Source of the DNA: Romanomermis culicivorax
Lineage: Eukaryota; Nematoda; Enoplea; Mermithida; Mermithidae
DNA length: 64,000 nt
Direction of reading: 5' to 3'
Assembly: GCA_963922205.1 (NCBI GenBank)
Contig: CAWUHX010000035.1
Span: forward strand, 1,364,001 to 1,428,000
Of this stretch, positions 1,627-33,519 are shown in pieces (positions within the stretch are counted from its first letter, which is position 1; each line of letters starts with the position of its first letter). The notes beneath the pieces are model-generated. The model saw nothing but the letters and a program-made list of their open reading frames with translations. It searched no databases and had not been told where the DNA came from. The translations under genes were made by a program, and so were the position numbers.

Positions 1627-1655
1627 GCCAGAATAAAACATATTACTTATAAAAA

Positions 1656-2033
1656 ATGGCTTACCTGATTATCTTAATGTCAATAACAACTGTAACTAAG
1701 GCTTGTATTTATACAAATGAGACACAGGCGATTTGTAATGGTGTTACTAATTATAATAATTTATCTCAAAATATTCGGTCTTTGATCTTAGAAAACAACT
1801 GTGATTTTCAGGTTAATGATTGGAAAAATTTTTCAAAATGTTTACCAAAACTTGAGAAAATAAAATTTGAACCGAACTGTGATCAGTGTCTAGAAATTGA
1901 TGACCATTTCCCCAAAATTAGTGTTGAAGGCAGATGCTTGGAAGGCATGCACCACTGGAAACATGTACTCTTATACATTACAAAAGTAATAAAATCAGAA
2001 ATTATATCCAATTTTACAGTCAGACAACAATGA
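1656..2033 (+). CDS. Small putative secreted cysteine-containing protein (P0 region)
   Basis: An intact 125-residue ORF whose first ~16 residues are hydrophobic and end in an Ala-Cys boundary typical of a signal peptide. The mature part contains about eight cysteines and several N-x-T/S sequons, fitting an extracellular or lumenal protein. I do not recognise the family. A leucine-rich-repeat-like stretch (residues about 45-75) is a weak resemblance only. It sits between the AT-rich array and a TBP-like gene on the other strand, with a TATAAATA box 37 nt before the ATG. Its place inside the putative P0 Polinton is inferred from neighbours. Confidence 0.5.
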   Translation: MAYLIILMSITTVTKACIYTNETQAICNGVTNYNNLSQNIRSLILENNCDFQVNDWKNFSKCLPKLEKIKFEPNCDQCLEIDDHFPKISVEGRCLEGMHHWKHVLLYITKVIKSEIISNFTVRQQ

Positions 2034-2061
2034 ACAAATCAATACATCGGCTTTAAACATT

Positions 2062-2521
2062 TCATGACAAAATTTGGTGCCAATCACAATAAATGTTTCC
2101 TGATGTGAAAATGATAACCGTCAATTTTGGTTGATCCACATTGTATCTCAAACCTGGAAAAAGTTCAGGTTCATAAAACGTCTTTGAATCAAGTTTCTTC
2201 TATATTTTTGGTAGGCTAACAAGTATCCCAAGCTGCTTGATCCAACATAATCGTGAATTTTTAACAATGGAATGGGATGGTGTAACATTTGACCAACTTT
2301 TTCAAATGCTTGTTGAACTAGTTAATCATTTTTGATCCAGTGCATTCAATTTTGCCAGAAGAGAACAAGATTACTGTAGCTTTTGGATTTTCAAGTTTCA
2401 GGCTCAAGCCTGGAAATTGGCCAGAACCATATTTCACAATATCTGCATAATCTTGTTTGATTTTATGCAAATTAATTTTGAATCCAAAATCAGAGCTAGA
2501 AATTATGTTAAAAATTTTCAT
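2062..2521 (-). pseudogene. TATA-binding-protein-like gene, copy 1 (P0)
   Basis: Read on the minus strand from the ATG at 2521, the product shows the two-repeat TBP fold signature. The first repeat has an N-I-x-x-S-x-D-x-G-F-K-I-N-L start, then F-P-G-L and the strand motif I-L-F-S-S-G-K-I-x-C-T-G (about 2335-2400). The second repeat has [10 protein letters not shown] and I-I-F-T-S-G-N-I (about 2085-2160). Frame shifts near 2325 and 2225 break the gene, and the final segment ends at the TGA at 2062-2064. TBP binds the minor groove of TATA boxes and nucleates RNA polymerase II transcription. The gene converges on the secreted-protein ORF. A second, independent copy lies in P1 at 4473-4991 in the same position relative to the element end, which argues that it is an element gene and not a host TBP pseudogene. 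Confidence 0.75.
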
Positions 2522-2755: not shown

Positions 2756-3193
2756 ATGACTTTTTTCAATCTGCGACCCAGTTGTAGTTATCAATTCTAT
2801 CCACCTATGAACATTACAGTAACCCTAATGAAGGACGATTTTGTTACAGTTAGAGCATGGAAAGCGGGCAGGAAACCATTTTATGCCCGATCAAAATTGA
2901 GGTGCAAATTCGAATTTGACATCATGTGAGTCGAATATTTTTGCAACAAAGTTACAGTAGGATACTTCCCCAATGGCTGTCGTGGTGTGGAATTGGAATT
3001 GTGCCCAGGACCAGGCGTGGAATTGCCAGAACACGTCGAAGAAAAACGCATCAGTGCATTCCAATACATCGCCCCTTATGTTCAACAATCTCATTTGATC
3101 AGGAATGAAGATCCAATCAAAATCGTCTACTGCAGCATCCCCATGCATCCTCAACATCCAAGGGCCCTGACAAAAAAACGGACAATTGAATGA
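2756..3193 (+). pseudogene. Unrecognised protein with one in-frame TGA (P0 region)
   Basis: A single plus-strand frame runs from 2723 to the TGA at 3191-3193, interrupted only by a TGA at 2927-2929. The ATG at 2756 lies 44 nt after the start of a TATAAATA box, the spacing seen for other element genes here, so I prefer it to the ATG at 2723. The product has aromatic- and Pro-rich N-terminal segments and no family I recognise. An intact 167-codon frame on the opposite strand (2891-3394) overlaps it, but its start is a low-complexity Phe/Tyr run over a poly-purine tract, so I treat it as the shadow. Confidence 0.4.
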
Positions 3194-3604
3194 ATAATCA
3201 GGGATTTTTCTATTTAACTCTACAAACCCAATGGCCTTTTTAAGGGCCACCATATTTACAGAAATTTTGCCTATGAACGAGTTGTATTTTCTACTTTTAG
3301 GGAGAAAAAAAAAGAAAAAATAACAAGCATAGAGAATATAATAGAAAGAAAAAACAATAAAAAAATAAAAACAATATTCACGAATAATAATCAACTGTTG
3401 TACAATGGACCAGTGACCCTTGATACTGTTTTAATACACTCACTATAATAAACTATCAAAAAACTATCAAAAAATATGGATATATTACCATTTTTATAAA
3501 ACAATACCCAATGTTGGCCTTTTTGTTTTGAGAGATCTGTGTGAAATAAGAAATGATCTCAATCAACATGTAGAATTTGAATTTGAAAAAACATTCTTGA
3601 AACT
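3194..3604. other. AT-rich spacer before P1, nothing recognised
   Basis: AT-rich DNA with purine and A-rich runs near 3300-3370 and no convincing ORF, hairpin or repeat. It separates the P0 remnant from the AGTAGTAAAG terminus of P1. Confidence 0.5.
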
Positions 3605-4193
3605 AGTAGTAAAGAGGGGGCCTGATCGTAAAAAGCTCCCCGGCCCATGTTAAACATAGGCGTTGGAGTTGGAAAAAAATTCACAACCTCCCCAACACAT
3701 AAAACATAGCCGGCCTTCCTCTGACTACTATGACGTCATTTTTCCAGCTGGAAAGAAGCATGATGTCACACCTGGGGCAGTTGCCGAAACTTGGCCCACC
3801 CACATCTCCATCAAAACTCAAAATAATGTAACATATATGGAGGTACTTTTCGGAATCAGCTCAATGTGATCTATCGATTTGTACTCAACATGATCCATTT
3901 AGCACAAAAGCCTAAATTTAGTGTGGGCTCTACCATTTATGTTATTTGTTATTATGCATTGCCACTGCCCTCCTCTGCTGCAGCCACGCCTGTTGGGGGG
4001 AAGGGAAGTTTGCATAGCTAATAAAGCTAAAGCTGCTGCCTCAAGCTTTACATAGCTAGCCTAAATAGGAAAGTCATGTGATACATCAACAGAAATTGTG
4101 TACTCATTCACCTGATCACAGGATCAGTCCCAGCACCAGCCGGGGGGAGGCTAGTACACATGTGGTGCCAGTACTTTCATAGAAAGTACCCAT
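3605..4193 (+). repeat. Left terminal inverted repeat of P1
   Basis: The reverse complement of this segment aligns by eye almost throughout with 22990-23600. Shared landmarks in order are the AGTAGTA end, a TTTTCCAGC-like block flanked by TGACGTCA/TGACATCA, GATAGATC, GCATAATAACAAATAACATAA, AAAGCTTGA and GGGTACTTTC at the inner edge. Divergence between the two TIRs shows the insertion is old. Confidence 0.9.
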
Positions 4194-4206
4194 AATAAAT
4201 GTTGTT

Positions 4207-4386
4207 TTACTTTTTTCTAGTATAGTTGTGGTCCCAAGTGGCCTTATTTTTCATCAACTTTTTCATTCTTTTCACTGGTGGAGGATCAACACCCAATTCT
4301 CTGTATCTACCTCCCTGAATATATTTACACACAGCATAATGCACAGAATGCACAGGAGTTTTCCTACATAAGTTGCAAGGCTCCAT
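4207..4386 (-). CDS. Small basic Cys-containing Polinton protein, 59 aa, intact
   Basis: An intact ORF from the ATG at 4386 to the TAA at 4207-4209. The N-terminal third has cysteines spaced C-x2-C and a third further on, and the rest is Pro/Lys/Arg-rich (PPPVKRMKK-like, ending in RKK), suggesting a nucleic-acid-binding or virion DNA-condensing protein. A TATAAATA box (4422-4429) starts 43 nt upstream of the ATG, the spacing seen at other P1 genes. It is the first gene inside the left TIR. I do not recognise a family; function is inference from composition. Confidence 0.55.
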   Translation of the reverse strand: MEPCNLCRKTPVHSVHYAVCKYIQGGRYRELGVDPPPVKRMKKLMKNKATWDHNYTRKK

Positions 4387-4421
4387 TGCAGAGAATGAAT
4401 GTTTCAGCTTTCTATATGATA

Positions 4422-4429
4422 TATTTATA
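4422..4429 (-). promoter_or_regulatory. TATA box (TATAAATA) of the 59-aa gene
   Basis: On the minus strand the sequence reads GGTATAAATATATC, 43 nt before the ATG at 4386. Confidence 0.5.
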
Positions 4430-4472
4430 CCAGTGGGTAGTACTGTAATTGAATCATACTAGTACTTACTCA

Positions 4473-4991
4473 TCAACTTTGAAAACTGACAAGTAACTCT
4501 TTGAAGTTTTTCTGCAGTTCACCATAGGTCTTTGCACCTGTAATAATAATTTTACCATTGTGAAAAATCAATGCACATAAGCCCTGCTTGTTAATTGTAT
4601 ATTTCAGTGCAGGAAATAATTCGGGAGAATAATCACACTGACCCCTATGAGTGTTATAAAATTCCTCAAGGTTGATTCAATGATTTAGGGCCTATGACCC
4701 GAAAACATTGCACATTCTAAATTTCCTGGGTCTTGGTCGATAGCCGAGTTTGAGCAGTACATCTGCAAAATGATCTATACTTTTCATCACCTGCTGAGTT
4801 GCCTTAATGCCCACACATACAAGCTTGCCATTTTCGTACAATAGTACACAACATTTAGGATCACTAAGGTGCCAAATCAGTGACCTGAATTTTCCCATAG
4901 TCAGTTTAGAGCCATCCAATTTTTTAGCAAGTGAGTCCAAATTGAGTCAACAGCCAAGTTCAGCTCTGACAGTAATGTTTTGTACTTTCAT
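4473..4991 (-). pseudogene. TATA-binding-protein-like gene of Polinton P1
   Basis: A single minus-strand frame of 173 codons from the ATG at 4991 to the TGA at 4473, the size of a bare TBP core domain. Repeat 1 has the V-Q-N-I-T-V start, L-G-C and L-N-L, then the pattern C-V-L-L-Y-E-N-G-K-L-V-C-V-G followed by a long helix and L-L-K-L-G-Y. Repeat 2 has F-R-M-C-N-V-F-G-S, Y-S-P-E-L-F-P-A-L-K-Y and C-A-L-I-F-H-N-G-K-I-I-I-T-G-A-K. These are the diagnostic beta-saddle strands of TBP in the right order. Three in-frame stops (TGA after repeat-1 residue ~14, TAG and TGA near 4690) break it, but there is no frameshift. TBP recognises TATA boxes; P1 genes carry such boxes. TBP homologues are known in some large DNA viruses; I am not aware of it as a standard Polinton gene. 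Confidence 0.8.
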
Positions 4992-5009
4992 TTTTAGAAT
5001 AAACTTTGC

Positions 5010-6080
5010 TTAGTGTAAATTCACAATTGTTTTACCAGTGACAAATTTTATAGGTTTGTCTTGATAATTGAAATTTCGATAGGATCTATATCTTTTAGGA
5101 GTACAGGCAAGTAGTGAGGAGCTATATATATCTTATCTATAATGTCACCAAAAGCTCCCTCTATATTAACAATACAGAGGAGGGGGGCTAAAATATCACC
5201 AGCAATCAGTTGTTCAATGATGTTACATAAACATACATGGTTTCGAGACTACCCTTCATATCAGCAGGGTGTGCAGCAGTAATTTTCAATTTTTCAGATG
5301 AAGTTGTTTCTACACTACCAGGCGAAACTAACCCTCAAAAATTTGCGTCCGGGATGCGTCCGGAACGCGTCTTTTTCGGCAGCACAAAGAAAACTTTCAT
5401 CTTTCTTAGTAATTGACATTCATGCAATAACTGTCAATCATAATTCTTTCATAATGTGTAGTGGATATGCACTTTGTTTTGATCTACAGTATGACAACAA
5501 TTGACCTTTCGTTTATATCTGGTAAATAATGTGTGCTTTCTATAGGGAGGTAAGAAGGAAGCCTCAGCAAAATTCTTTGGCTTTGTGTGACACGAGCACA
5601 TGGCTTGTCAATTTTATTGTCGGTATAGTGTGCTTTTCGCGTCCTGGGTGCGTCCCAGACACGTTCTGGACGCGTTCCGGACGCGTCCTGGACGCGACCG
5701 GCATGAACGGTTAGTTTCGCCTGGTAGTGTAGTTGTGATTTCTCGAAGCCCAACAGGTAGAGTAAAGGATCACTTAATTTTATGCTCTTGATTCTAATCA
5801 AGTTAACTTTCAGGACAACTGCTCTAGCTAATCTCCTATATGAAAATTCAACTTTTTCCTGTTCACTCAACAACCTGATGGATTGTTGAATAGCTTCAAT
5901 TAAATCTATTACAGATTCATACCTTGTAGAAGGTACTTTTAGTAATTGCCTAGTATTGGTCTGAAGATCATAAAATTTTATTACACTATCACCAGGTGTT
6001 ATATTGAACCATGTATTTGGGTAGATGAATTCACAAAGTGCACATTCCCAGTCACCTTGCAAAATCAGTCTATGAGGCAA
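5010..6080 (-). pseudogene. Penton-type minor capsid protein of P1, central and C-terminal part
   Basis: Residues after the insertion scar read as the single-jelly-roll Polinton minor capsid (penton) protein: a W-E-x-A-L-x-E-F-x-Y-P motif near 6040, an L-L-G-F motif near 5745, then A-A-H-P-A-D-M, I-A-G-D-I-L-A-P-L-L and P-H-Y-L-P-V near the end. The gene is split three ways. Its first 28 codons lie at 11293-11378 beyond a 5.2 kb transposon, a 423 bp MITE (5310-5732) sits after the L-L-G-F motif, and frameshifts occur near 5235 and 5050. Pentons form the capsid vertices next to the double-jelly-roll major capsid protein encoded at 11904-13207. Confidence 0.75.
5310..5732. mobile_element. 423 bp TIR element (MITE) inside the penton gene
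   Basis: The ends are inverted copies of CTACACTACCAGGCGAAACT. Inside each end are arrays of GCGTCC(G/T)GGA-type motifs (5345-5375 and 5640-5700), arranged like subterminal transposase sites. There is no ORF of its own. The penton reading frame resumes on either side. No clear target duplication was found: the flanks AAGTTGTTT and TTGTGATTT share only TTGT. Superfamily not assigned. Confidence 0.75.
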
Positions 6081-7083
6081 CCCAGGGTGAAGGGTACTGA
6101 TAGTCTACTCCTAAGGAACCAGATAAGGTAAGGTAATACATAAGCATCAGTTAGGTATCACATAAGTTATCACATACCTTATCAGTGTCTTATCTGATAC
6201 TAGCAGTCAGATGATCTAAAAATTATGTACTGGCAATGTAAGACGTAAAGTGGTCATAGATAAGAACTGATAAGACTTGAATTCCATGGTTTGCGTTCTT
6301 TTTTGATTATTAATAGATAGTTATGCTCAAATATACACAATAAGGTCGATTTGACATTTATAACAATCCTTTAAGGTCAAATAATGTAATGTGAAAATTT
6401 AGATTTCACAAACATTGTCATAACAAGTCATGGATAAAGTCACATAATACCTAAGCCTAGCTAAGGTAACATCAGTCGTACTGATATGGCATGCATAAGG
6501 TCACGTAGTTTACAGGCACTGCTAATGTAATATATAATAGGTACTGGTAGAAACAGTTAAAGTCAGGTACCCCATAGGAATGTATAAAGTAATTTTCAGA
6601 AATCTGATATTGTGAATGGTCGAGTAGGACATAAAGTGGTCAAATATTAGAATTCATAAGGTCCAAATTTGGTTTAATAACGGAGTATGTCATTTCAACT
6701 AATACTGTTTGCCAGATCAGGTATGAACATAAAAATCAAAGTTTAAATGATCAGTAAAATGAACAGAACGAAAATCAAGATGATGATGGACAATATGTTT
6801 AATTAGATATGTACAAATTTGGATACCATGTTAGAATTGACATTGTATAATACAAGGTTGAGAGAAACTCTGGCAAGGGAATAGGAACAGTACTTCAATC
6901 GTTTATTCATGGAAATAGAAAAGAATATGCCAAGAATCATAATTTTCGAGATTATGCACGTATTTAGATGGCGATTTTTTGGAGACGACGAACATGGTAC
7001 TATCTTCGTGCAAGTTGAAACAGGTTAATACAGTAAATATGAGGCATCATATTGACTTTAAAATTGACAGAAAAACCGCGGAC

Positions 7084-7902
7084 TAGTGTTTTTTTTGTGC
7101 TAAAACATGGTTTTTGACACAAAAAAAATTTGAATGGCACAAAAAATTTTGAGCATTTGTGCCAATTGGCACAAATTTTTTGGCTGGTCAAAAATTAAGT
7201 TTCCTTTATTTTTAGACGTTTAGGGCTGGAAATGCAAGAATTTTTTGGCCCTTCGCGCCGAATCAATGAATATAATATTTCCTATTCGTATATTTGACCT
7301 GAACGCGAACGATTTCTCTTTGAACAGTGTATTAGTATCGTTGCAGCAAAATTTATAGGCCGTCAAGACTGATGGGTGAAAAGAAATTCTGAATATTCTC
7401 TCCTTCATTCAGTCAGATTCGGATTTAAAACTGAAATTGTTACTTTTTGTGTTTGATTGATTCGAACAGAAAAATCAATATCATTGATAATGGCACAATG
7501 TTTCGATCGAAAATTAACGTGATTTTCGACTTTATTTTCTCTAGTCTTAACATGGTTTTTAAATATACATAACATAGATATTCGAATCAATTTGAACTTC
7601 CTGAACAATTCTAGAGCTATTTAAATTATCTCAGCACTCCATTTCTTTTTGGAATTTTGTGAAATATTTTGTTGCACAGTTTTTTCTCTTCTCACTGATA
7701 TGGTTAGCTGAAAAATAGGTTGGGCACGATTTTTACAAATAATTAATGCGTTAAACAATAACTTTTTATCAAACTTTTGGTCTAAAATTTTTCCGCAGTT
7801 TTCAGTATGTCTCTAGTAAAAAAAATTTTTTTGTGCCATTGGCACAAATTTTTTTGGCCTCTTGTGCCAATTGGCACAAATGTCCGTGAAAAAAAAATGC
7901 TG
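7084..7902 (+). mobile_element. MITE-C copy 1 (hAT-like, 819 bp)
   Basis: T-rich ends contain the palindromic word TTGTGCCAATTGGCACAAA near both termini. An 8 bp duplication with one mismatch flanks it (CCGCGGAC at 7076-7083, CCCCGGAC at 7903-7910). Full-length relatives lie at 30046-31505 and 32273-45208. The 8 bp duplication and CAGTG/CAGCG-type ends of the relatives fit the hAT superfamily. Non-coding. Confidence 0.8.
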
Positions 7903-7910
7903 CCCCGGAC

Positions 7911-8600
7911 CCAGGGTTTCAGGTTTTTTTTGCACACAGCAACCAAATTTCGGGCTGTGCAACCAAATTTTTTCTGCCAGGTTGCACAGTGCAACTTGAG
8001 GCCTGACTGCTTTTTTGATTAGGTTATAGGGTTTTCTGTCCGGAGATGCATTTTCATGCGTTCTAAAATGGAAAAAAGTGAAAATTTCCGGGCTCTCCGC
8101 ACCGGGTTTCAATTTATTTATAATTTGTTATATTATTCCAGTGCGCAGTTAGAAAATGTCATTCTAGTTAGTGCTTATAGCATACCTGTAATTGGGGGGG
8201 GGTTTGAGGGTGGCACCCCCCAGCTTGGCCAACCATTTAACCCAGCCCTCCAGTTTGGAAAAAATTGGCAAAAAAGTGTATGTTTTTTGGCTTTTTCGGG
8301 AAAAATTTCGACTTTTTTCGACCCCCTCCCCCTAAATTTTGGATTCACCCCCCCCCCCCATCAACTAGTCGCACCTCTTACAGGTATGGCTTATAGGTTC
8401 TAATTATCAAATTATTATGGATAAATGTTTGATCCTGTATTGTCTCATGACGAATTTGATTGAAAACTAACATTTTTCAGTTATTTTCCCAAAATTTTTT
8501 TGCGATCTTCATACAAATTTTGATTTTCATGTGATAAAAACAGGGTTGGCAAAAACCAAACTTTTGAAATTTCTACATTTTGGTTTTTTAGTGGTTTTTT
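7911..8600 (+). repeat. Repeat family X, copy 1 (interrupted by MITE-B)
   Basis: Starts near a CAGGTTTTTTTTGCACACAGC motif and contains the landmarks GGGCTGTGCAACCAAATTTT, GTTGCACAGTGCAAC (a palindrome) and GGAGATGCATTTTCATGCG. The same order of landmarks is at 45514-46060, and the right half recurs at 8860-9180. No ORF. MITE-B is inserted at 8181-8388. Confidence 0.65.
8181..8388 (+). mobile_element. MITE-B copy (208 bp) with exact 8 bp TSD
   Basis: Starts CATACCTGTAATTGGGGG and ends CTTACAGGTATG, flanked by exact GCTTATAG duplications (8173-8180 and 8389-8396). The paralogous repeat at 8860-9180 has the same flanking DNA with a single GCTTATAG and no insert, i.e. an empty site. G-runs and C-runs sit just inside the ends. 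hAT-like by duplication length. Confidence 0.9.
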
Positions 8601-8859
8601 TCTGGTTTAATTCGTTAAAATATTTGGTACATAAAATAACTATGTAAAAAACTGCGGCAAGCTCCCTGTATCATCTAAGACTGGTTGGAGCGCCTTAAAA
8701 TGGCAGCTAGAAGTATTAATCTTATCTGAAGTGTCATTATTTTATGCTATAGGAAATCCCTATTATAGCAATAGAAATACAGTAATAGCAGGCACATAAG
8801 AAAGGAACGATGAGTGAAGAACATAAAAAAAGTAAAAATGGAACAGAGCATACAGTTCT

Positions 8860-9180
8860 ATCTATGTGTTATAAAATGGAAATCAGTGAAAATTTTTTTG
8901 CGCTTGGCGCCGGTTTCAATTATTTAATAATTTTTCTACATTATTCCAGTGCGCGGTAGAAAAATGTTGTTCTAGTTAATGCTTATAGCTTTTAATCAAC
9001 ATATTATGGATAAAGGTATGATCCTGTGTTGTTTTTTGGGGAATTTAACGAAAAGTAAGATTTTTTTCGGTTAATTTCTTCAAAAATTTTTTGTGATCTT
9101 TAAAACATTTTGACATTTGTGTGATTAGAACATTTTTTGACATTTGTGTGATTAGAACAGTTGCATAAATTTTCACTTGA
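8860..9180 (+). repeat. Repeat family X, copy 2 (empty site for MITE-B)
   Basis: Matches 8050-8560 through the TTATAAAATGGAAA…GTGAAAATTT, CATTATTCCAGTGCGCGG and TATTATGGATAAA landmarks, with one GCTTATAG (about 8983). A 24-27 bp segment around ACATTTTTTGACATTTGTGTG is duplicated near 9110-9150. Confidence 0.65.
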
Positions 9181-9344
9181 AAAATTATGCTAACAATGTA
9201 AGTTTTCAATTTCAATCAAACATCCAAAATAGCAATTTCAGTGCTCAATCCCACTGAATGAACAGACAAAGTTAAGAATTTCTAGTATATTATTTGATGG
9301 AACTTTGCTCACATTCAGCCTGAATAAGAGCAGTTAATATTATG

Positions 9345-9530
9345 CTCATTGACTCAGAATGAACTGCTGCGAAAGTTTTGCATTTTCAGCCCCTAAAATG
9401 TGTAAAATCAAAGTAATTTAGCTTTTGGTCACCCCAAAAACTTGTGCCAATCAGTAAAAATGCTAAAAAAATTGTGCTACTCTAAATTTTGTTCGAAAAC
9501 CATGTTTTGGCACTAAAAGCCCTGGTCAAG
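9345..9530 (-). repeat. Degenerate MITE-C end
   Basis: Resembles the 3' part of the reverse-orientation MITE-C copy (45040-45208): TCATTGACTC…TTTTGCATTTT…CCAATCA…CATGTTTTGGCAC, ending CCCTG. Its other end is not clear. Confidence 0.5.
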
Positions 9531-10900
9531 ACCTGAAAATTTTACCAGTGTCATCCTTTAGTCGAATCATTAGGCAATTTAGGTATTTTTGATTGTTTTT
9601 TCGCTGCTTTTTGTTAATGCTAATTTTGTTTGGTTCATACATTCTTGTATAATCTGGCCTAAAACTAACATGATGGGTTTTTCACTATTTCTTGGTGAAT
9701 AATTTACTGACTGCAGAAGCACCAGAATGTTCAAACAAACTTGAAAAAGCATAATAAAGCATTATGTGGTATTTTTGATCAAAAACAAAAAAAAATTTGG
9801 GGGGGGCGGAGCATCAATTTGACAATTTCCGCATACAGGTAGTGCTCAGTTTTCTGTGATCCAGATACATTCTGAAATGCTGAGTTGTTGTATGACATGC
9901 CTTGCTGTTACAGAACTTTTCTCGTTGATGCATTTTTTTGAACTTTTGGAGTAGCAGGATTACTTGAGCAGAAGGTCTTTGTGATAAAAGTTAATTCCAG
10001 ATTCTTGTTTTTCAGGTTTATTATATTCACATTATGTTTGTATTTCAAATTTTATCGTGAGCTCATGACGAATTGGATATCTTGTTCAATACAGAGCAAA
10101 GTCAGCATCATTTCGGATAGAAAAATGTAAACAAATAGGTAATAAGTCTCGAAAATAGAGTATTGTTTTTAGTCCATTCATTAAGTATTTGAATCCTCCC
10201 CAAAAACTGCCAAAAAGACAGGAAAAAAGAAAGCAGGGAAGGCTGTGAACTGCAAAAGTTCTTGCTTTCTAGTTGACATTGATCATTCCAGTTATTTTAT
10301 TAATTGCTTGTTTTCAGTTCAAGTTCAATTCAGTTGCCTGGATCAAATTTACTAAAATCGAATTTTTTTATCTGACGTTTAACTTATTTTTTATTGTTAG
10401 CAGACCAAAACATCATCACATTTTCCCAGCCTGGTAATAAGTTTGTGAAGAAAAAGAAAATCATATTCCTCCTCTAGTATTCTGTTATTAGATGAGTGCA
10501 TTCTTAATCAGATCAGTTTATTTTTTCTTGTTTACAGATAGGCTTCTGACGCTTGGAACTGAGGAAATTGCGATGATCAAGTTCATGAATATATAATTTA
10601 GAAGTAAGTGTTGATTGAATTTAAAATTTTTTTTCAGGCAGCCATGTTGAACAGAATATAATTCAAAATCATAAAAGACAATTACATATCCTGTGATGAG
10701 ATAGAGGTATTTTCAAATTGTGTTTGTGTCTGTATCTTTATGACTATTTGATTGATTTTATATTTCAGTTGACTGATAATTGTATGAAAAATCCAGGGCT
10801 CCATATGAAATTGTGGAAGTTCCAAAATGTTAAAGATAGGTGATATCTTTTTTAGCCATCTACATATTCATGTTCTTTATAATCTTTGTTTTTTATTATG
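9531..10900. other. AT-rich interior of the 5.2 kb transposon, nothing recognised
   Basis: No ORF above background, no clear inverted or tandem repeats apart from homopolymer runs. Presumably remnant interior of the element at 6081-11292. Confidence 0.4.
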
Positions 10901-11292
10901 GCAAGTATGGTGTTTTTTTATTAATAAATTTGGCCATCACATTGTTTCGTACAGTAACACACATGGTATGAGAAGGTATTAGTAAGGTACAACATGAGGT
11001 TGACATAAGCATGGGTAATGTACCACATAAGTCATTCGGTACTGACAAGGCATGCATAAGGTAATATGTAAGGTACCCAGGTTCCCTCTCTGTATTCACC
11101 CATACAAATAAGGTAATGCATATGGTCATAGTTGGAACAAGTTAGGTCACGTATAAGCATTCATAAGAACTGGTGAAGTAAAAGATAAGCATTGATAAAA
11201 TAATACATAAGATTTGTGTATACCATTATCTTTACCTTATCTAGTATGTGACAGGTATCTTCCCTATTCTTATCGGTAGCCTTTACCCTGGG

Positions 11293-11378
11293 AACCTGTT
11301 ACTAAAATTTGAAGCGAAGTTACTCGGATCACTTTGAGCATTGCTCGGTAATGTTACATAAAACTGTGAAAAATCCAT
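11293..11378 (-). pseudogene. Penton-type minor capsid protein of P1, N-terminal part
   Basis: The ATG at 11378 opens 28 codons with the Y-V-T-L-P-S-N-A start typical of Polinton pentons, then runs into the 5.2 kb transposon at 11292. The frame resumes at 6080. TATAAAAG at 11410-11417 lies 39 nt upstream, overlapping the end of the protease gene. Confidence 0.75.
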
Positions 11379-11409
11379 TTTTTCAATATATCATTAGGGT
11401 AGAAACTAA

Positions 11410-11417
11410 CTTTTATA
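11410..11417 (-). promoter_or_regulatory. TATA box (TATAAAAG) of the penton gene
   Basis: The minus strand reads ATATAAAAGTTAG, 39 nt before the penton ATG (11378). It overlaps the last codons of the protease gene. Confidence 0.6.
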
Positions 11418-11907
11418 TTCTGTTGAGCTGGTCAAATAAAAATGCATCATCATATATGGGAGTATTTATTCTAAAGAGACTGTTGATGAAGCCAGTAACC
11501 AATTGATCAGCATAGCTTTGTTCCAAACTATTAGAAATATCCCTCATTCTTATACCTCTGACTATCCACATGAGAAAGTATACACATAACTGACCACATG
11601 TAGCAGTCAAATACTGTTGAACACATTTGGTATTGCACTTGTAAGAAGTATATATAGTCTTGATGTAATTCCTAAGCTGTTGAGGTGGTTCAAGGCCGTA
11701 ACTGTCAAAATAACAACATGCATGTTTTTTATCAACAAACAGGGCTACCCAGTGTGAACCAGGTTCATCCTGCTTGTCTAGATTTACAACCAATGCTGCA
11801 GGTACAGTGTCAAGAGGTGGTAAACAGTCTATAGGGAATACCCCATTGAAGATTTGTCTGAGAGCTTGATCTCTATTGATCAAGATGTAGAATCCAGAGG
11901 TATTCAT
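11413..11907 (-). CDS. Adenain-like cysteine protease of P1, intact
   Basis: A 164-residue ORF with the catalytic layout of adenovirus-type (C5 family) maturation proteases: G-S-H-W-V-A-L with His52, Y-F-D-S-Y-G-L with Asp68, a Gln at 97/98 and Cys104 in T-C-G-Q-L-C-V-Y-F-L. In viruses with this fold the enzyme cleaves capsid precursors during virion maturation. The ATG overlaps the major capsid stop region by 4 nt (ATGA), so the two were probably read from one transcript. No stop or missing catalytic residue is visible, unlike most P1 genes. Confidence 0.85.
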   Translation of the reverse strand: MNTSGFYILINRDQALRQIFNGVFPIDCLPPLDTVPAALVVNLDKQDEPGSHWVALFVDKKHACCYFDSYGLEPPQQLRNYIKTIYTSYKCNTKCVQQYLTATCGQLCVYFLMWIVRGIRMRDISNSLEQSYADQLVTGFINSLFRINTPIYDDAFLFDQLNRI

Positions 11908-13207
11908 GCAGTATAGTCATTAAAGACATGTCTATTTTTATCCATCAATATCAAATTGTCAAATTCTGCATAAAAAATAACTTCTTTACCTATGTCAGGT
12001 ATCTTATCAGCAAACGTCAATTCTATACTTGTGGAACAATCTCTAATCAAGTCCCAATCTCCACTATCATCTTCATCAGGTGTAAAATCGAAGGAAAAGT
12101 AGCACTGTCCATTTTTAAAATTAAATCTGCTAATGCCATTCCCTTCGTTATCTTTAGCCATGTCTAGAGTTTCAAAGAGCTGATCATAGGCTCAAATATA
12201 TTTGTTGTTGGCAAAATCAAGTCTTAGTGGAGTCCCTGGAAAAGCTTGACCACCAGAGACAACCTTGACTTCGCTTATACTGTAACATTTAAAATTAAAT
12301 GGAGATTTTTTTATTTCTCCATGATATGCATCCGCATCGACACATGCTATAATCATCCTACGTGGCAACTGACCAGTGAATAGAGTATTTTGAGGTGTAG
12401 ATTGCGTTGTACTAGCAATATGAAGGTTCACCATTTGGACTCTTCTGATTGGGTAATTGACTGACATTTTTAACATTGCTTTTTCCAGAGCCAATCCAAC
12501 ACTGTCGAGAACTTCAACTTTCGTGATGAAGAGTTTCATCTGGGAAACTTCCAATTTTGCATTTTCTACATCACCAGCTGGACACTGTAATACAAATGGA
12601 TTACTATTGCATATCAATTCCAGTTTGAGCTCAGTATTGCTGAGTAAATATCGATCTTGCATTAGAAGATCCAAATGAAGAGGAGCTGTTATTTCAACTG
12701 CTTGACCATTTTCAAAGTACTTTGCCCTGTCTTTAAAACCCTGGCAATCAGCAGTATCTATTTTAGGACCAGCTTCCATTGTATACAAAGAAGACTGTAA
12801 GTGACTATTTTTAGCATCAAAACCAAAATTTAAATCAGTTTCAAAGAATGCTCTGTAGGCATACTTATCCCGACTATCATGAATGAGATGACCATTCAGG
12901 AAGAGCTTCACTTGTCTAAAAAATGCTTTACCAAATAGTCACTTACAGTCTTCTTTACTGGTGCAGCTCCACCAGCAGGAACAATGTAAGTCATTTTCAA
13001 GGTCATGTACAGATAATTTTTGCTAAGCTGAATCATGTGAGGATCTGGAGATATATGAAATTTGTACGGACCATCATTTGTGATAGGATTTATGAGGTTA
13101 ACTTCATCCCAGTAGCCTCGTTTAATTACTACTTGTGTGGGAAGTACAGTGAAAAAGTCCAATTCAGACTTCGTAATAATACTAGAAATTGTATCAATTA
13201 GAGCCAT
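11904..13207 (-). pseudogene. Major capsid protein (double jelly roll) of P1
   Basis: Reading starts at the inner ATG at 13207 (M-A-L-I-D), preceded by TATAAAAG at 13250-13257. The N-terminus has K-S-E-L-D-x-F and P-T-Q, the middle G-Q-L-P-R-R and V-D-A-D-A-Y-H-G…S-P-F-N-F, and the C-terminus N-G-I-S-R and F-D-F-T-P, all features of Polinton major capsid proteins. About 434 codons. It is broken by a frameshift at 12908-12911 and an in-frame TGA at 12192-12194; the C-terminal 85 codons (11904-12161) are the same frame beyond that stop, not a separate gene. The capsid, protease, ATPase and penton together make the virion module. Confidence 0.8.
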
Positions 13208-13616
13208 GTTTCTTTCTCTTTTTCTTTGAGAATATATCATTTTTCTCAACTTTTATACCTTTTGGTCTCATGCCCAGGCCTCTTCCAGTCTGCAAGGCAT
13301 CACTGGTGCTGTGGGCCAACTTGAAGAGTGCTGCTCAGCCATGTTCTTCTAGAGATTGTCTAATAGATGAACCTTCAGCTAAATCTCCAGCAATATGTGC
13401 ACCTGTGGATAGTGCTTGCTTACCAATATGACCAGCAGATGACTTAATAACAGGAATGGCCATTCTGAATAAAGATCTAAAGAAGCTTCCTAGACCTCCT
13501 CCACGCTGATAGGGAGTGCCTTTGAAGCCTTTGGAACCATAGCCAGTTTATTCAGCTTGTTCAGTGTAGTACTGAAGCCAAGTTGCATAATCTTCCAGAT
13601 TAAAGTATTGTCTCAT
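13194..13616 (-). pseudogene. Minor structural protein of P1 with G-x-P-Y-Q-R-G-G-G-L-G-S motif
   Basis: From the ATG at 13616 a 141-codon frame runs to the TGA at 13194, overlapping the capsid start by 14 nt. Tyr-rich N-terminus, then K-G-T-P-Y-Q-R-G-G-G-L-G-S-F-F and a hydrophobic helix, then Lys-rich C-terminus. This pattern is typical of a conserved Polinton minor virion protein upstream of the capsid gene. Two in-frame stops, a TAA near 13554 and a TGA near 13338, make it a pseudogene. TATAAAAG lies at 13650-13657. Confidence 0.6.
13250..13257 (-). promoter_or_regulatory. TATA box (TATAAAAG) of the major capsid gene
   Basis: The minus strand reads GGTATAAAAGTTGAG, 50 nt before the capsid ATG at 13207. 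Confidence 0.65.
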
Positions 13617-13649
13617 CTTTATAAGTTTACAAAATGCTGTAAATTACAA

Positions 13650-13657
13650 CTTTTATA
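13650..13657 (-). promoter_or_regulatory. TATA box (TATAAAAG) of the minor structural gene
   Basis: The minus strand reads GTATAAAAGTTGTAA, 41 nt before the ATG at 13616. It overlaps the stop of the upstream 218-aa gene. Confidence 0.65.
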
Positions 13658-14309
13658 CTTTTCCAAATTCTAACCATCTAGACCTTGGTGTAATGCTTTT
13701 GGGTGCCTTAATTTTTTTACCATCTACAGGGCCACTGATGGAAGCAAATGTTTCATCACTTTCACTTCGGACATTTAACCTGGACTTATTTACAAAAAGA
13801 TCTTGAGGCACATTCTCCTTTAAGAGGTTCTTTACAAACAATTCTGACCCTATTGCTTGCTGACGCCTGGGACCAACTCTCCCCACATCAGAAATCAAAT
13901 CAACAATCTTGGTTCCACTTATTTTGGTGCCTTTCAGAATCATTTCTCCTTTATCAGGCCACTCCATGCATGGATTATCTCTAGCATAATCATATAACAT
14001 TTTAGCCTGATGATGCCACTTTTTTGGTGCAATTTTCATAGTTTTTTCATACAGCACATCTTTTCTCGGGGTAATAATGACAGGACTTTCAGCAGTGTCT
14101 GGCTTTACTTGCTTAGGTGTTATTTCTTCCAGATCAGGAATGAGGTGTTCTGCAACAAGTTCACTAATAGTCAACTCATAAGGCCTAGTTTGATCCTGCA
14201 TAGCCTGCCTATATCTGTGCAACACTTGATTGTATAAGATTATCTTCTTGTATGAGGGCAAGGACTTGTTAGTTAAAATATCCTTCATTTCTTTATCCAG
14301 AGCAGTCAT
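13653..14309 (-). CDS. Conserved Polinton protein, 218 aa, intact in P1
   Basis: An intact ORF with an N-terminal helical region, a middle segment A-K-M-L-Y-D-Y-A…W-x-x-K-G-E-M, then G-T-K-I-S-G-T-K-I-V-D-L-I, and a C-terminal R-S-R-W-L-E-F tail. A homologue in P2 (26384-27184) aligns in the same order (G-E-V-L-I-D-G…G-S-H-I-I-D-L-L), so it is a genuine element gene. Its place in the structural cluster between the ATPase side and the capsid suggests a virion role; the function is not known to me. Confidence 0.7.
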   Translation of the reverse strand: MTALDKEMKDILTNKSLPSYKKIILYNQVLHRYRQAMQDQTRPYELTISELVAEHLIPDLEEITPKQVKPDTAESPVIITPRKDVLYEKTMKIAPKKWHHQAKMLYDYARDNPCMEWPDKGEMILKGTKISGTKIVDLISDVGRVGPRRQQAIGSELFVKNLLKENVPQDLFVNKSRLNVRSESDETFASISGPVDGKKIKAPKSITPRSRWLEFGKV

Positions 14310-14373
14310 TACATTAGCTGGTCTTCCCTATGACCAATGTCATGTGGTACAAGAATCATTTTATTTGAATGCA

Positions 14374-14718
14374 TCATTTTTTTATAATTGCATCAGCTAG
14401 TAATTGTCCAGCTATTCCTAAAATTGGTGCCAATAATACAGGCAAAAATCCACTTTTTTGTTCTAGAATGTCTCGTCTTTTGCTGAGACTTGTTTTCTCA
14501 TCTGCTAATACTCGTAAATGTCCCTTGTGGGAACTTAATTTATTCAATGTATTTCTGTCAACTTTTATATTGCCTTCCAGAAAGTTGAGTATACATTCAC
14601 ACAAACAAAGTATCAGTTCTCCATCAGCAGTGCTAATAATAGCTTTACGTTGCTTGGGTTTAGCCTTAGCTAGTACCCTGATGTAACCAATATTATGTCT
14701 AAGATGATCACAAGGCAT
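14374..14718 (-). CDS. Small conserved Polinton protein with hydrophobic C-terminus, 114 aa
   Basis: The start is set to the ATG at 14718 because CATAAAAGTTG (14747-14754) lies 36 nt upstream; the open frame continues to 14838 but that extension has no support. The basic N-terminal half contains K-x-K-P-K-Q-R-K-A-I, then a Cys-rich helix, then a C-terminal membrane segment F-L-P-V-L-L-A-P-I-L-G-I-A-G. P2 has a homologue at 27162-27502 with the same ending F-L-P-L-V-L-P-A-L-L. Probably a virion or membrane-active protein (inference). Confidence 0.65.
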   Translation of the reverse strand: MPCDHLRHNIGYIRVLAKAKPKQRKAIISTADGELILCLCECILNFLEGNIKVDRNTLNKLSSHKGHLRVLADEKTSLSKRRDILEQKSGFLPVLLAPILGIAGQLLADAIIKK

Positions 14719-14746
14719 TTTGACTTTACAACTGAAGAATATACAA

Positions 14747-14754
14747 CTTTTATG
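14747..14754 (-). promoter_or_regulatory. TATA-like box (CATAAAAG)
   Basis: The minus strand reads GCATAAAAGTTGTAT, 36 nt before the ATG at 14718. One base differs from the TATAAAAGTT of its neighbours. Confidence 0.5.
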
Positions 14755-14834
14755 CTTTTGGCACATATATTGTGGAAAATTTTGAGAAAATATCAGCTCT
14801 GAGTCTAAGTTTATTGGGTGTTGTTTGAGGAAGA

Positions 14835-15366
14835 TCAATAATTATAACTGTATGGTTCAAATGTGGCATCTTCAAAAGACTCCAGAAAGTACCTTATTTT
14901 ATCAAGAAACAACTGTCTTGCCAAAGTTTTTACTTGAAGTCTATCTGCAGGATTCTTCATCAAAATGAGGTACTCTGCATTTATTCTAGATGTTCTTAGA
15001 CCATTGAAGAAAACATTTTGCACAATGTGTATCACAGACACATTCATGTGATGACATCCATGAGTAAAAAGAATGTCCAGGTGCTTATTTTTTGCCATTT
15101 CCTGCATCAGATCATCTAGTATAACCAGCTGGGGTACAGGACTGAGCTCTCTAATCAAGTTCATGTCAGGTAACCCCTGATAGAAGTTGACCCTGCCAGA
15201 CAAGTCATTGTAGACTGGCTGCTTCTCACTAAAGAACCAGTGAATATGTTCAGGAACTGGTTCAATCAAGTACTTCACATCTAGTACTAAATTCTTTACA
15301 AAGGTTTTTTTACCAGCTTTTGTAGGGCCAGCAACATGTAAAGGGGTGATTAAATTTTACAGCCAT
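14835..15366 (-). pseudogene. Genome-packaging ATPase (FtsK/HerA-A32 type) of P1
   Basis: From the ATG at 15366, after a one-base frameshift near 15335, the frame shows a Walker A loop G-P-T-K-A-G-K-K-T-F (about 15330-15302), Walker B L-V-I-L-D-D-L (about 15130) and a C-terminal A-R-Q-L-F-L…F-E-D-A-T-F-E-P-Y segment typical of Polinton ATPases. These motors pump the genome into preformed capsids. The residue after the P-loop Lys is Lys instead of Ser/Thr, so the motif is damaged as well as frameshifted. About 177 codons, slightly short of the family. Confidence 0.75.
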
Positions 15367-15509
15367 GTTTTTTTTCTTCTATAGATTCTCAACCTTTACA
15401 ACATGCAACATGCTGGATATACCAGTAATTGTGCTTTATTTGTTTTTCTCTTAATTTTTTTCTTGTTTTTTATTTTTCATTACAATATTTAATTACACTT
15501 ATCACAATA

Positions 15510-15841
15510 TTAATAGGGTATATATATACCTCCATCATTGTATTTTTGCATGGCTTCTAGACTCAGATTCATCCAGATCTCAACAAAAGGGGTCCAGCAC
15601 TGCGGGTTTTCATCAAACCCTCTAGTGCCTTGGCAAAATGCCAAAACCCTGTCAATTTTCTCTTACCCATATGATGATCCAGTTCATTGGCCACTTTAAC
15701 CAAAATCTTCCATTCACGCTAGTAGCCATCATTTATTCGATCCCAAAAATATGAGCCATATATGGCCACATATTTTTTAGTTTAAGGTCTTTTGAGAAAA
15801 GTGCCCATACTCAGTGCAACATTTAAAAAAATACCCTCCAT
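15510..15841 (-). pseudogene. Unrecognised Polinton gene, broken
   Basis: From the ATG at 15841 one frame gives a protein rich in aromatic residues (I-Y-G-S-Y-F-W-D-R-I-N-D-G-Y) with in-frame TAA and TAG. After a frameshift near 15660 a second frame continues smoothly (Q-G-T-R-G-F-D-E-N-P, then W-T-P-F-V-E-I-W) to a TAA at 15510-15512. The two frames abut, and the composition changes exactly at the break, so I read them as one decayed gene of ~110 codons. TATATAAGTTG sits 72 nt upstream (15904-15913). No family recognised. Confidence 0.45.
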
Positions 15842-15903
15842 TTTGAAAAGTGACTAAACAGTAGAAGGTAAAGTTTGAAGACTGAAAGCTACAGAGAATT
15901 TAC

Positions 15904-15913
15904 AACTTATATA
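15904..15913 (-). promoter_or_regulatory. TATA-like box (TATATAAGTTG)
   Basis: Related to the TATAAAAGTTG boxes of neighbouring P1 genes. It lies 72 nt before the ATG at 15841, further than the others. Confidence 0.35.
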
Positions 15914-16030
15914 CATGAAAAATGTTTTAGAATACTTGCAAATCACTATTTTACTGTAGGCTTGAGGATGAGTGCCTGTCTTTAAGCCAGCTGCTTCTTT
16001 AGTACAGCGGTGCCAGCTTCCTGCAATGCC

Positions 16031-16222
16031 CTATTGTATTCTAGACATTTTTGGGCACATTTCAATAGTAAAGAATGTTTTGCCCTGAGACAACTGGAAA
16101 CACTCCCATTCAGAGCTGTTCTTTTGACAAAAATAACACAGTTCAATCATTAAGGCATACATGGCTCTCCGTAAGTTTTGAGCACAGAGTTCAATAGGAG
16201 CTTCAACTTTTTTCGACTCCAT
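16031..16222 (-). CDS. Small Cys-rich ORF of P1, 63 aa, unknown
   Basis: An intact short ORF starting M-E-S-K-K with five cysteines (C-A-Q-N, C-Y-F-C, W-E-C-F, M-C-P). The reading continues beyond the stop in frame for ~20 codons, so it could be a truncated longer gene. It lies between the integrase and the gene at 15510-15841 on the same strand. No TATA motif nearby. No family recognised. Confidence 0.35.
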   Translation of the reverse strand: MESKKVEAPIELCAQNLRRAMYALMIELCYFCQKNSSEWECFQLSQGKTFFTIEMCPKMSRIQ

Positions 16223-16333
16223 TCTAGTTAATCAAATGATTAAAATAATTTTGAAGTTGCTTACATACTGAAATATCAGGCACAGGTAAAAATTTTTAGA
16301 CCTGCAAATCATTGTTTAGTTTTCATACTGTAG

Positions 16334-17398
16334 CTATAGTTTTATCAAATCTGTCACCCAACTACTGAATTTATATGGGTGACCCTTCCATTTAACAAAG
16401 TATTCAGTTTTCTCAGCCCTTTTTCTCTTTCATATAATCTTTTCTATAATGCAGACGTCTGTAATCTCATCAATTTTCTGTGATTCTTGCTCATAAAATA
16501 AGCCCAGTACGACTTCTCCCAGCTGATCTTCTACTATATATACAGGAGGATATCTAGCTTTTTGCTCATGGATCACAAAAACGTCATCACTCCAATTGGG
16601 AGTATAACCCTACTCAAACATCTTTTTGACTTTGCTTATGCATACCTTGTCACCAGGGACCAGTTTAAATTGTACACTAGACTTACATTTCCTGAAAAGC
16701 TTTTCAACAATTTCAGGTTTATTCCCATCAGTAACATCAATGGGAGCAAAACCTATGGTCCTATGCCTAGTAGAGTTGTAAGAGCTGAGCAGGTGAGGCA
16801 GAATGTCTAAGTACTTGTATGTATTATTCTGAGTAAAACGACACCACATTCTTTCCTTTAGAGTTCTATTGAACCACTCAACAATGCTAGCCTTAGTTTC
16901 ACTAGCAGTTATGAAAACACTAATGTCAAGTTTCTTTAATAAGGCCAGGAAGGCTTTGTTTGTAAACTGTGTACCAGCATCGGTCTGTATTTTCTGTGGC
17001 TCCCTGCCAGACTTCAAAATTGTTTCAAAGGCATGTAAAATAGATGATGTACTTTTATTTTTCAAGGGTACAGACCATGCAAACTTTGACAAGACATCTA
17101 TACAATTTAAACGAAATTTAAATCCATCATTATGCCTGGTGAGTGAACTGAGGTCTGCAAGATCCATTTGCCACTGTTCATCAATATCAGTAACTAGAAC
17201 ATTATTCCTGGGGTAATGGCGCCTAGCATACTTGTGTATAGTATATGTTGACTGTTTTTGTAACCACTCCTTAACAGAATGCAGAGTGACCCTGGGACTA
17301 CTAGCTTTTGCCTGTCGCAACAGGTTCTGAGTACTACAATACCCTGTACTTGGGTTGAAGTATATGCTTCCAAAGAGCTTGTCCATTTTTTTAAGCAT
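16334..17398 (-). pseudogene. Retroviral-type integrase with chromodomain, P1
   Basis: A single 355-codon frame with the catalytic triad of the RVE fold: Asp79 in Q-W-Q-M-D-L-A-D-L, Asp140 in Q-T-D-A-G-T-Q-F and Glu174 in S-I-V-E-W-F-N-R-T-L. After a TAG at 16607-16609 and a TGA near 16430 the same frame gives a chromodomain: E-K-I-I, then E-Y-F-V-K-W-K-G-H-P and F-S-S-W-V, ending at 16334. Polinton integrases insert the element; chromodomains in related integrases direct target choice by binding histone marks. Without the two stops it would have normal length. TATAAATAAAAGTTTG (17411-17422) precedes the ATG by 24 nt. Confidence 0.85.
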
Positions 17399-17410
17399 GC
17401 TGCTGACAAA

Positions 17411-17422
17411 CTTTTATTTATA
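17411..17422 (-). promoter_or_regulatory. TATA-like box (TATAAATAAAAG) of the integrase gene
   Basis: The minus strand reads TATAAATAAAAGTTTG. It looks like the shared box with a four-base expansion. It overlaps the end of the upstream membrane-protein gene. Confidence 0.45.
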
Positions 17423-17633
17423 CATCTGCAAGATTGAATCTGAGACTTTTTGTGCTAGTTCCTGAATTTTTTGTAAACAGGTTCTCCAAGTATCTCGTTA
17501 ACAATTTCAATAGAATCGGTATTGTTAATACAGCCAAAAGAGCCACACAATACCATATCTCAGTAAAAACTGTTTTCCCATTATGTCTTTCCAGGCAAGC
17601 TAGAAAATGTTCAATAGTGTGGTTTGCATCCAT
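17418..17633 (-). CDS. Small single-pass membrane protein of P1, 71 aa, intact
   Basis: The ATG at 17633 (M-D-A-N-H) is preferred over the longer open frame because TATAAAAGTTGG (17663-17670) is 37 nt upstream. Residues ~25-46 form one hydrophobic membrane span (Y-C-V-A-L-L-A-V-L-T-I-P-I-L-L), followed by a short polar tail. It lies between integrase and PolB. Function unknown; a virion-membrane or egress role would be a guess. Confidence 0.5.
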   Translation of the reverse strand: MDANHTIEHFLACLERHNGKTVFTEIWYCVALLAVLTIPILLKLLTRYLENLFTKNSGTSTKSLRFNLADV

Positions 17634-17662
17634 ATTTTTTTCCACTATAGAGAGCCAGCCAA

Positions 17663-17670
17663 CTTTTATA
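17663..17670 (-). promoter_or_regulatory. TATA box (TATAAAAG) of the membrane-protein gene
   Basis: The minus strand reads GGCTATAAAAGTTGGC, 37 nt before the ATG at 17633. Confidence 0.65.
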
Positions 17671-18254
17671 GCCACCAATACATAAAAAACGACCAATCAA
17701 TTCTCAAAGAGCGCAAGTTTTTGTTTGTTTACCTAAGGTTTATTGATTGAAAACCTTCCTACTATATGAAACATTTTATGTAGATGAAAAGATGGGTGAA
17801 AGTCTCACATAGTTTTCTAATGGTAAGAAAGCAAATAGATAAAATTGAAACAGCTGTGAGGTACAGTATTACAAGCTCAAGTGATTCACATGCTCATTGT
17901 TGTGAATCGAAGCGATGGAATATGCTAGAGGCTTTCATAGTATTGCAGAAACCCTGTCTGTATCTATGATCAAACATCTCAACTGGAAGAAAAAAGTGGG
18001 TTAATGAAAAGGGAGCTGAGAAAATGACTCATAAAGTGACAACTTGTCTAAAGAAAAATGATGTAAGCAAGAAAGTTGTTATATGTGCATTTTGATTCAA
18101 TTTGACTTGAAAGATAGATCAAAAAGTGAGATAAGAAAAAACCAGAAAAAACCAGTTTATTTTCAGCATGAATCATCAGAAAGTGACATTTGATGGAATT
18201 GATCAGTAGGTTTTGCTGTTCCAACTCAGCCTACAGTAATTCTAAAAAGAAGAG
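17671..18254. other. Divergent spacer between membrane-protein gene and PolB
   Basis: AT-rich with no convincing ORF. It separates the minus-strand gene block from plus-strand PolB and so probably holds divergent control sequences; the only recognised ones are the two TATA boxes at its edges. Confidence 0.4.
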
Positions 18255-18262
18255 TATAAAAG
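18255..18262 (+). promoter_or_regulatory. TATA box (TATAAAAG) upstream of PolB
   Basis: AGAGTATAAAAGTGG on the plus strand, 104 nt before the PolB ATG at 18359. The only box of the set on this strand. Confidence 0.55.
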
Positions 18263-18358
18263 TGGAAAGAATTTGAGTAAGCTCATTTGTGATTTCTATC
18301 AACTTGAAGGAAGGTGACCTCTGAAAATCTGTATTAAAATTTTCTGTTATTGATTATT

Positions 18359-22540: not shown

Positions 22541-22749
22541 GATTTTTTCTTACATGAGGTAAGTTTAATAATTTTGTGAATTTACTTTATTCTATTTTTT
22601 ACTTTTCTTTTTGTTCATTTAATTTTCTCCGACTATATTTTATATTCACATGTCTACTATGCAGACATTTTTACTTTAACACAATGAAGAGAGTATGTCA
22701 GCAGTAGGAACATGAATCGTCAGTTGTCCCGTTTGAATTTGTGAATTTA
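22541..22749. other. Spacer after PolB, nothing recognised
   Basis: T-rich DNA following the PolB stop; AATAAA-like signals are absent. Confidence 0.4.
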
Positions 22750-22920
22750 GCAAGGTGCTAGATGCATGGTGAGGAGCCACTGACAGCCTAGTGCCATGCA
22801 AATCTATGCTGGGTTCCAGGTGCTTGGTAAGGAGCCAATGACAGCCTGGAGTTGAGCATGCGTATATGTGTATGCATGATGTTAGGTGCATTGTGAGGAG
22901 CCAATGACAGTCTGACATCA
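22750..22920 (+). repeat. Three-copy tandem repeat, ~65 bp period
   Basis: AGGTGC…GGTGAGGAGCCAATGACAG occurs near 22754, 22818 and 22881 with 1-3 changes per copy. It lies between PolB and the right TIR of P1. Confidence 0.75.
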
Positions 22921-22989
22921 CGCTAGTATGTTTGGTACAAGAGTTCTGATTTATATGACTCGAATACTGCATGAATATTCTCCAATTTG

Positions 22990-27502: not shown

Positions 27503-27649
27503 ACAAAACAGACCATACAGTACAGAAAAATATTACAATAATTACCAAATGTTAAATGAACATTGAAACAGTTAATGTATTACATTAAGATAGTAATAAA
27601 GCTTCATTTTGTTAACAACATTCAACTCTTAACATCTAGAAAAAGCACA

Positions 27650-31505: not shown

Positions 31506-31572
31506 ATTAGGGCACTGTTGCCAGGTGCAGTAGAATTCTACTGTTTTCAGTAGAATTTTTTCTCAACAGTTA

Positions 31573-33481: not shown

Positions 33482-33484
33482 TTT

Positions 33485-33500: not shown

Positions 33501-33519
33501 TTTTTTAAAGGTTATAGAA

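Follow-up and report, generated by a model that had tools for sequence, protein, structure and literature searches.

A decayed, divergent TATA-binding-protein gene inside a degraded Polinton of Romanomermis culicivorax, with a second copy nearby

The degraded Polinton P1 and its TBP gene

The stretch of DNA analysed here (the window, 64,000 nucleotides) contains an element, P1, that spans positions 3605–23600 (19,996 bp), begins with AGTAGT and ends with ACTACT. Repeat comparison located its terminal inverted repeats (TIRs) at 3605–4195 (plus strand) and 22987–23600 (minus strand), the two arms sharing 80% identity over 580 columns. Pfam recognised, above the cut-offs, a protease at 11413–11907 (minus; Peptidase_C5, E = 2.3e-05) and an integrase at 16610–17398 (minus; rve, E = 2.2e-11); matches below the curated cut-offs were obtained for an ATPase-like frame at 14835–15356 (minus; Pox_A32, E = 2.4e-04) and for one frame (DNA_pol_B_2, E = 0.0027) of a broken DNA polymerase B region at 18551–22453 (plus). 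A candidate capsid-region gene at 12192–13252 (minus), also broken, has a homologue among the Polinton fragments that we call P2 and describe below; the candidate capsid frames of P1, of which this is the one common to P2, have no Pfam match. Among the frames of P1 that were searched, Pfam recognised no RNA polymerase. When the P1 and P2 integrases were aligned and used as a query, 3313 of 5485 candidates were homologous at E ≤ 1e-10, and proteins of Branchiostoma, Amphiura, Holothuria and Paramuricea appear among the 120 matches listed. Dispersed repeats common to the interior of P1 and the region to the right of P2 were seen at 7088–8087, 9325–9518 and 30054–32910, in both orientations.

In its TIRs, end motif, integrase, protease and size, P1 resembles the vertebrate Mavericks, whose intact copies, in the portion of PMC8097293 covered here, measure 12.7–24.6 kb and have an (AGT)2//(ACT)2 end motif and 6-bp target-site duplications. 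Unlike those intact elements, P1 has no 6-bp target-site duplication, the flanking bases agreeing at two of the six positions of the expected site. Since such duplications mark intact copies, most other Mavericks being decayed (PMC8097293), we file P1 only as a degraded Polinton.

Close to the left TIR, at 4473–4991 on the minus strand, lies a gene of the TATA-binding-protein (TBP) family, hereafter TBP1, as judged by Pfam, PDB matches and tblastn. Its translation of 172 positions covers both PF00352 repeats in two stretches, scoring 129.2 bits (E = 5.1e-38) against a curated cut-off of 22.9 bits, and at an E value of 5e-38 a chance match to TBP is ruled out. In the PDB, 35 distinct sequences of solved structures match TBP1 at E ≤ 1e-3, the best of them being human TBP chains (E = 3.7e-28, query residues 3–166); the names of the 35 are those of TBPs, of TBP-containing fusions and of one unnamed microbial protein (ECU04_1440). 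An earlier, sequence-only reading had placed two TBP repeats in order on this strand at these coordinates and had proposed a search with PF00352, and both the Pfam and the structure matches bear it out. It was also right that the gene lies between the P1 inverted repeats and that a 59-aa gene adjoins it on the TIR side, namely a 59-codon open reading frame at 4207–4386 (minus), next to the TIR and without a Pfam family. With the PF00352 match and the position between the TIRs, a TBP homologue within a Polinton is well supported. A stop-to-stop frame beside TBP1 at 5484–6104 (minus), named penton in that reading, has no Pfam match at E 0.01; next to it we noted by eye a MITE-like insert with short inverted ends at 5310–5750.

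What did not stand is the 173-codon frame as an open gene. It contains in-frame stops at codons 15, 100 and 105, without a frameshift, and the open stretches that bear the TBP match are 4476–4676 and 4695–4946. Because of these three stops, TBP1 does not count as an intact frame and is a pseudogene of the TBP family, its protein sequence still well preserved. It has no N-terminal domain, beginning directly at the TBP core, and lies on the same strand as the protease and integrase genes of P1. A protein search with TBP1 alone as the query returned 39 candidates, none at E ≤ 1e-3, and a PHROGs search with TBP1 returned no families.

A second TBP-like gene and the putative Polinton P2

A second TBP-like gene, TBP2, absent from the earlier reading, lies outside P1 at 2013–2521 (minus). 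One of its open stretches alone matches PF00352 at 7.1e-17, and tblastn with the related protein P0121 covers TBP2 over its whole length across several frames; this copy too is not intact, having undergone several frame changes. TBP1 and TBP2 are identical at 41 of 135 aligned residues, and the differences between them number 74, 58 and 83 at codon positions 1, 2 and 3, respectively (position 2 vs. 3, p = 0.003). This pattern would fit the maintenance of coding after the two genes split, but it carries little weight: the sequences were aligned as protein, a procedure biased towards matches at codon positions 1 and 2. A frame of about 125 aa at 1653–2033 (plus), with a hydrophobic start, is convergent with TBP2 and overlaps its end; it matches no Pfam family at its cut-off. 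A long open frame at 2891–3430 (minus), between TBP2 and the left end of P1, has no convincing match in P1, and its ATG-started part no Pfam match.

Starting about 170 bp beyond the right end of P1, comparison with P1 detected a further series of Polinton gene fragments: a homologue of the P1 capsid-region gene at 23766–24398 (plus), a protease at 24953–25249 (minus; 45% identical to the P1 protease over 74 aa), an integrase in two frames at 25356–26306 (minus; 43% and 37% identical to that of P1), and a homologue of the P1 gene at 14374–14766, located at 27221–27532 (minus). Gene order differs between these P2 fragments and P1. The simplest reading, we believe, is an insertion of P1 into an older Polinton, P2, which was thereby split into two parts; in that case TBP2 would be a former gene of P2. 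Since P1 has no target-site duplication and no TIR was detected for P2, we only infer this nesting; the best candidate for P2 terminal repeats scored 21, where random stretches gave a median of 20 and a maximum of 36.

Elsewhere in the window, an LTR retrotransposon occupies 32910–45027, with direct LTRs at 32910–33481 and 44457–45027 (91% identical), a reverse transcriptase at 36968–37381 and an integrase zinc-binding domain at 38068–38463. Dense tandem repeats with periods of 21 to 191 bp fill 329–1539, an ABC-transporter-like open frame at 58185–58547 (plus) is a possible host exon, and a reverse transcriptase fragment lies at 61024–61542 (plus). Scanning the window for Rfam families and tRNAs gave no hits.

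Divergence from canonical TBP and the pattern of contact residues

Over 161 aligned positions TBP1 shares 54 residues (34%) with human TBP, whereas human and rotifer TBP share 81% identity over 164 positions; on these figures, with human and rotifer TBP as references, we rejected a recent copy or retrocopy of the host TBP. When TBP1 and TBP2 were combined into a profile, 23 of 255 candidates matched at E ≤ 1e-5. The best match, the environmental protein P0121 (172 aa), shares 46% identity with TBP2 in an alignment of 140 columns. Together with the environmental TBPs P0121, P0135, P0136, P0137 and P0141, the two window genes make up what we call the divergent seven, a set picked after looking. 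Like TBP1, TBP2 starts at the core itself. In four of the relatives (P0121, P0135, P0136 and P0137) the start lies only a few residues from the core, in P0141 some 15 residues ahead of it; archaeal-type matches such as P0131 are also core-only, and a short start is no mark of the divergent group alone. P0141 has in addition a C-terminal tail of about 100 aa; a search of the window with this tail gave nothing below E 0.5, and the tail may come from fusion with an adjacent gene. Eight scans of viral contigs with TBP or integrase queries, and one scan of genome contigs, brought up no related locus.

A first, untrimmed tree of 24 rows (the 23 profile matches less the short P0139 and P0142, plus TBP1, TBP2 and human TBP) did not resolve the divergent set; it placed P0136 and P0137 next to P0143 and left open 11 of its 21 internal branches. 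Later trees were built on the 164 human-core columns with 23 rows (P0143 dropped) or 21 rows (P0132 and P0134 dropped as well), and giant-virus, mirusvirus and host TBPs were not among the rows of any tree. In these trees the divergent seven split from canonical eukaryotic and archaeal TBPs with support of 97/99 (21 rows) and 96/98 (23 rows), and the split had support of 99/99 when an approximate TLF sequence was included. Leaving out P0141 gave 85/98, and leaving out P0135 gave 95/99. With P0143 included (24 rows), the best tree did not unite the seven alone, though their monophyly was not rejected (p-AU = 0.338), and the eight formed by adding P0143 were a clade (96/97). A forced join of TBP2 with human and rotifer TBP was rejected (p-AU = 0.0019); the corresponding join of TBP1 was not formally rejected (p-AU = 0.0585), and a join of TBP1 and TBP2 alone gave 0.0998. 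The expectation that TBP1 would not group tightly with animal TBP is thus upheld by identity and by the trees, and falls short of a formal rejection of the forced join. Deep divergence of TBP1 from canonical TBP is clear from the sequence comparisons; its origin is not settled by these trees, in which long branches are in play.

TRF2/TLF, an animal protein that is, like TBP1, a short TBP relative, was also considered as a source. The approximate TLF sequence used here has other residues in place of three of the four intercalating Phe, unlike TBP1 with its three Phe and one Tyr, and from these sites we think a TLF origin of TBP1 unlikely; a tree test of joining the two gave no rejection (p-AU = 0.128).

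We take the minor-groove Asn in both repeats and the four intercalating Phe to be the DNA contacts of TBP, E284, E286 and L287 of human TBP to be its contacts with TFIIB, and A184, N189, E191 and R205 to be those with TFIIA. With the roles of the sites so assigned, TBP1 has N and N, then F, Y, F and F, at the DNA contacts (five of six identical, one conservative change), S, E and L at the three TFIIB contacts (two of three) and A, G, K and S at the four TFIIA contacts (one of four). TBP2 has Asp in place of one groove Asn. Like metazoan TBP (PF00352; human chains such as 1c9b and 1nvp), TBP1 has two repeats with a groove Asn in each, three of the four intercalating Phe and the YxPELFP motif; unlike it, TBP1 stands at 34% identity, has no N-terminal domain, has three of the four TFIIA-contact residues changed, and is a broken copy located in a Polinton. 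TBP1 retains 18 of the 25 columns that do not vary across 14 canonical TBPs, and TBP2 retains 14 of the 22 scorable ones; for the 13 columns that the five divergent relatives also leave unchanged, the numbers are 11 for TBP1 and 7 of 10 scorable for TBP2. The predicted model of P0121 has a mean pLDDT of 92.6 and a pTM of 0.83, with a strand-helix order that repeats twice.

Over the divergent seven, with site roles assigned as above, the canonical consensus is matched in 39 of 42 cells at DNA contacts, 19 of 21 at TFIIB contacts and 5 of 25 at TFIIA contacts, and in 366 of 1092 over all core columns. The 12 canonical eukaryotic rows, from which that consensus was itself partly built, match it in 67/72, 34/36 and 42/48 cells at the DNA, TFIIB and TFIIA contacts and in 1400/1967 over all core columns. 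The TFIIA contact is a regulatory surface that is not needed for Pfam family membership. This distribution suggests that selection for DNA and TFIIB binding may have acted in the divergent seven while the TFIIA contact was lost.

Possible role of a TBP carried by Polintons

Eukaryotes and archaea have few promoter factors more central than TBP. We regard it as fairly probable that TBP1 is a decayed Polinton gene and no stray copy from the host, that it is one of a divergent core-only type of TBP which at least two Polinton lineages seem to have had, and that the protein served the element's own promoters. Let us suppose an intact protein. Its two-repeat saddle would bind TATA boxes in the minor groove, the TATA-bound element TBP would then recruit host TFIIB, and host RNA polymerase II would thereby be placed on the element promoters. 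The TFIIA contact, through which host TBP is regulated, would have no part in this. The sequence-only reading's proposal that the element came with a promoter-recognition factor of its own is a reasonable supposition; the copy present here is a pseudogene.

The regions upstream of the P1 genes have a bearing on this scenario. TATAAAW occurs at 18 sites in all on the P1 minus strand and lies within 70 bp upstream of four of nine minus-strand starts (p = 0.002), in a test devised after the upstream regions had been viewed and with starts that are partly stop-to-stop ends. In a wider count over P1 and P2 starts, TATAWW was found within 100 bp in 6 of 15, against an expected 22%. Such motifs would be equally usable by host TBP. 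The regions ahead of P1 genes have no more 7- to 9-mers in common than random stretches do.

A bolder version, which we offer only tentatively, is that animal Polintons without an RNA polymerase harbour an ancient, virus-borne lineage of TFIIA-blind TBPs, of which P0121, P0135, P0136, P0137 and P0141 would be further members, and that the element's own TBP with host TFIIB and host RNA polymerase II would make up an alternative pre-initiation complex.

Other roles and origins need to be weighed against service to the element's own promoters. The element's real TBP might have competed with or diverted host TBP, leading to shut-off or reprogramming of host transcription, and not chiefly have served its own promoters; the retention of most DNA and TFIIB contacts with the loss of most TFIIA contacts would suit such a competitor as well, but the TATA motifs upstream of several P1 genes suit own-promoter use, and we consider this role rather unlikely. 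Quite unlikely, in our judgement, is that TBP1 is an accidental copy of a host TBP or paralogue, captured by P1 and without a role there, with TBP2 an unrelated decayed paralogue in the flank. Both genes are broken, the assignment of TBP2 to P2 is itself conjectural, and neither the join of TBP1 with human and rotifer TBP nor that with the approximate TLF is rejected, all of which such a capture would accommodate. It sits poorly, however, with the gap between 34% and 81% identity, with the intercalating Phe that TBP1 keeps and the approximate TLF has mostly replaced, with the rejected join of TBP2 to human and rotifer TBP, and with the presence of two divergent TBP genes adjoining Polinton genes in one window.

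We give very little credence to a separate insertion of TBP1 between Polinton genes after P1 had integrated: P1 does hold later inserts, the repeats at 7088–8087 and 9325–9518 being common to regions outside it, but no detected repeat overlaps TBP1, which is encoded on the same strand as the protease and integrase, and TBP2 adjoins another set of Polinton genes. Equally improbable is a non-transcriptional use of the TBP fold, in which it bent DNA as an architectural protein during replication or packaging; the kept DNA contacts would allow this, but it would have no need of the mostly kept TFIIB-contact residues (19 of 21 cells).

In the portions of the literature covered, TBP occurs in 59% of mirusvirus genomes and in 0% of the Nucleocytoviricota set of the same paper (PMC10132985), TBPs are mentioned for Cymbomonas elements, some of putative mirusvirus origin (PMC10675990), a prasinovirus table lists TBP (PMC2386258), and a megavirus expresses TBP together with its own RNA polymerase subunits (PMC11464507). 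By gene presence alone, and within those portions, P1 is like the mirusviruses and the large algal and amoebal viruses (PMC10132985, PMC2386258, PMC11464507) in having a TBP; unlike large viruses with TBP, it is 20 kb long, and its Pfam-scanned frames contain no recognised RNA polymerase. For vertebrate Mavericks, the main text of PMC8097293 contains neither 'TATA' nor 'TBP' and has no TBP among the eight core genes modelled, whereas P1 has TBP1; 'TATA', 'TBP' and 'transcription factor' are absent from PMC10120064. A full-text literature search, judged from titles and the beginnings of abstracts, brought up no TBP described in a Polinton, and a description from adintoviruses may exist.

The viral TBPs in the literature portions covered belong to large DNA viruses, and TBP1 lies in a 20-kb animal element. 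Most likely, judging from the sequences, some Polintons encoded a core promoter factor, by which host RNA polymerase II would have been directed to the elements' promoters. If this is true, such Polintons would not rely only on host core-promoter recognition, and they would put on offer a natural TBP without a TFIIA surface, together with a concrete test of how Polintons switch on in animal cells.
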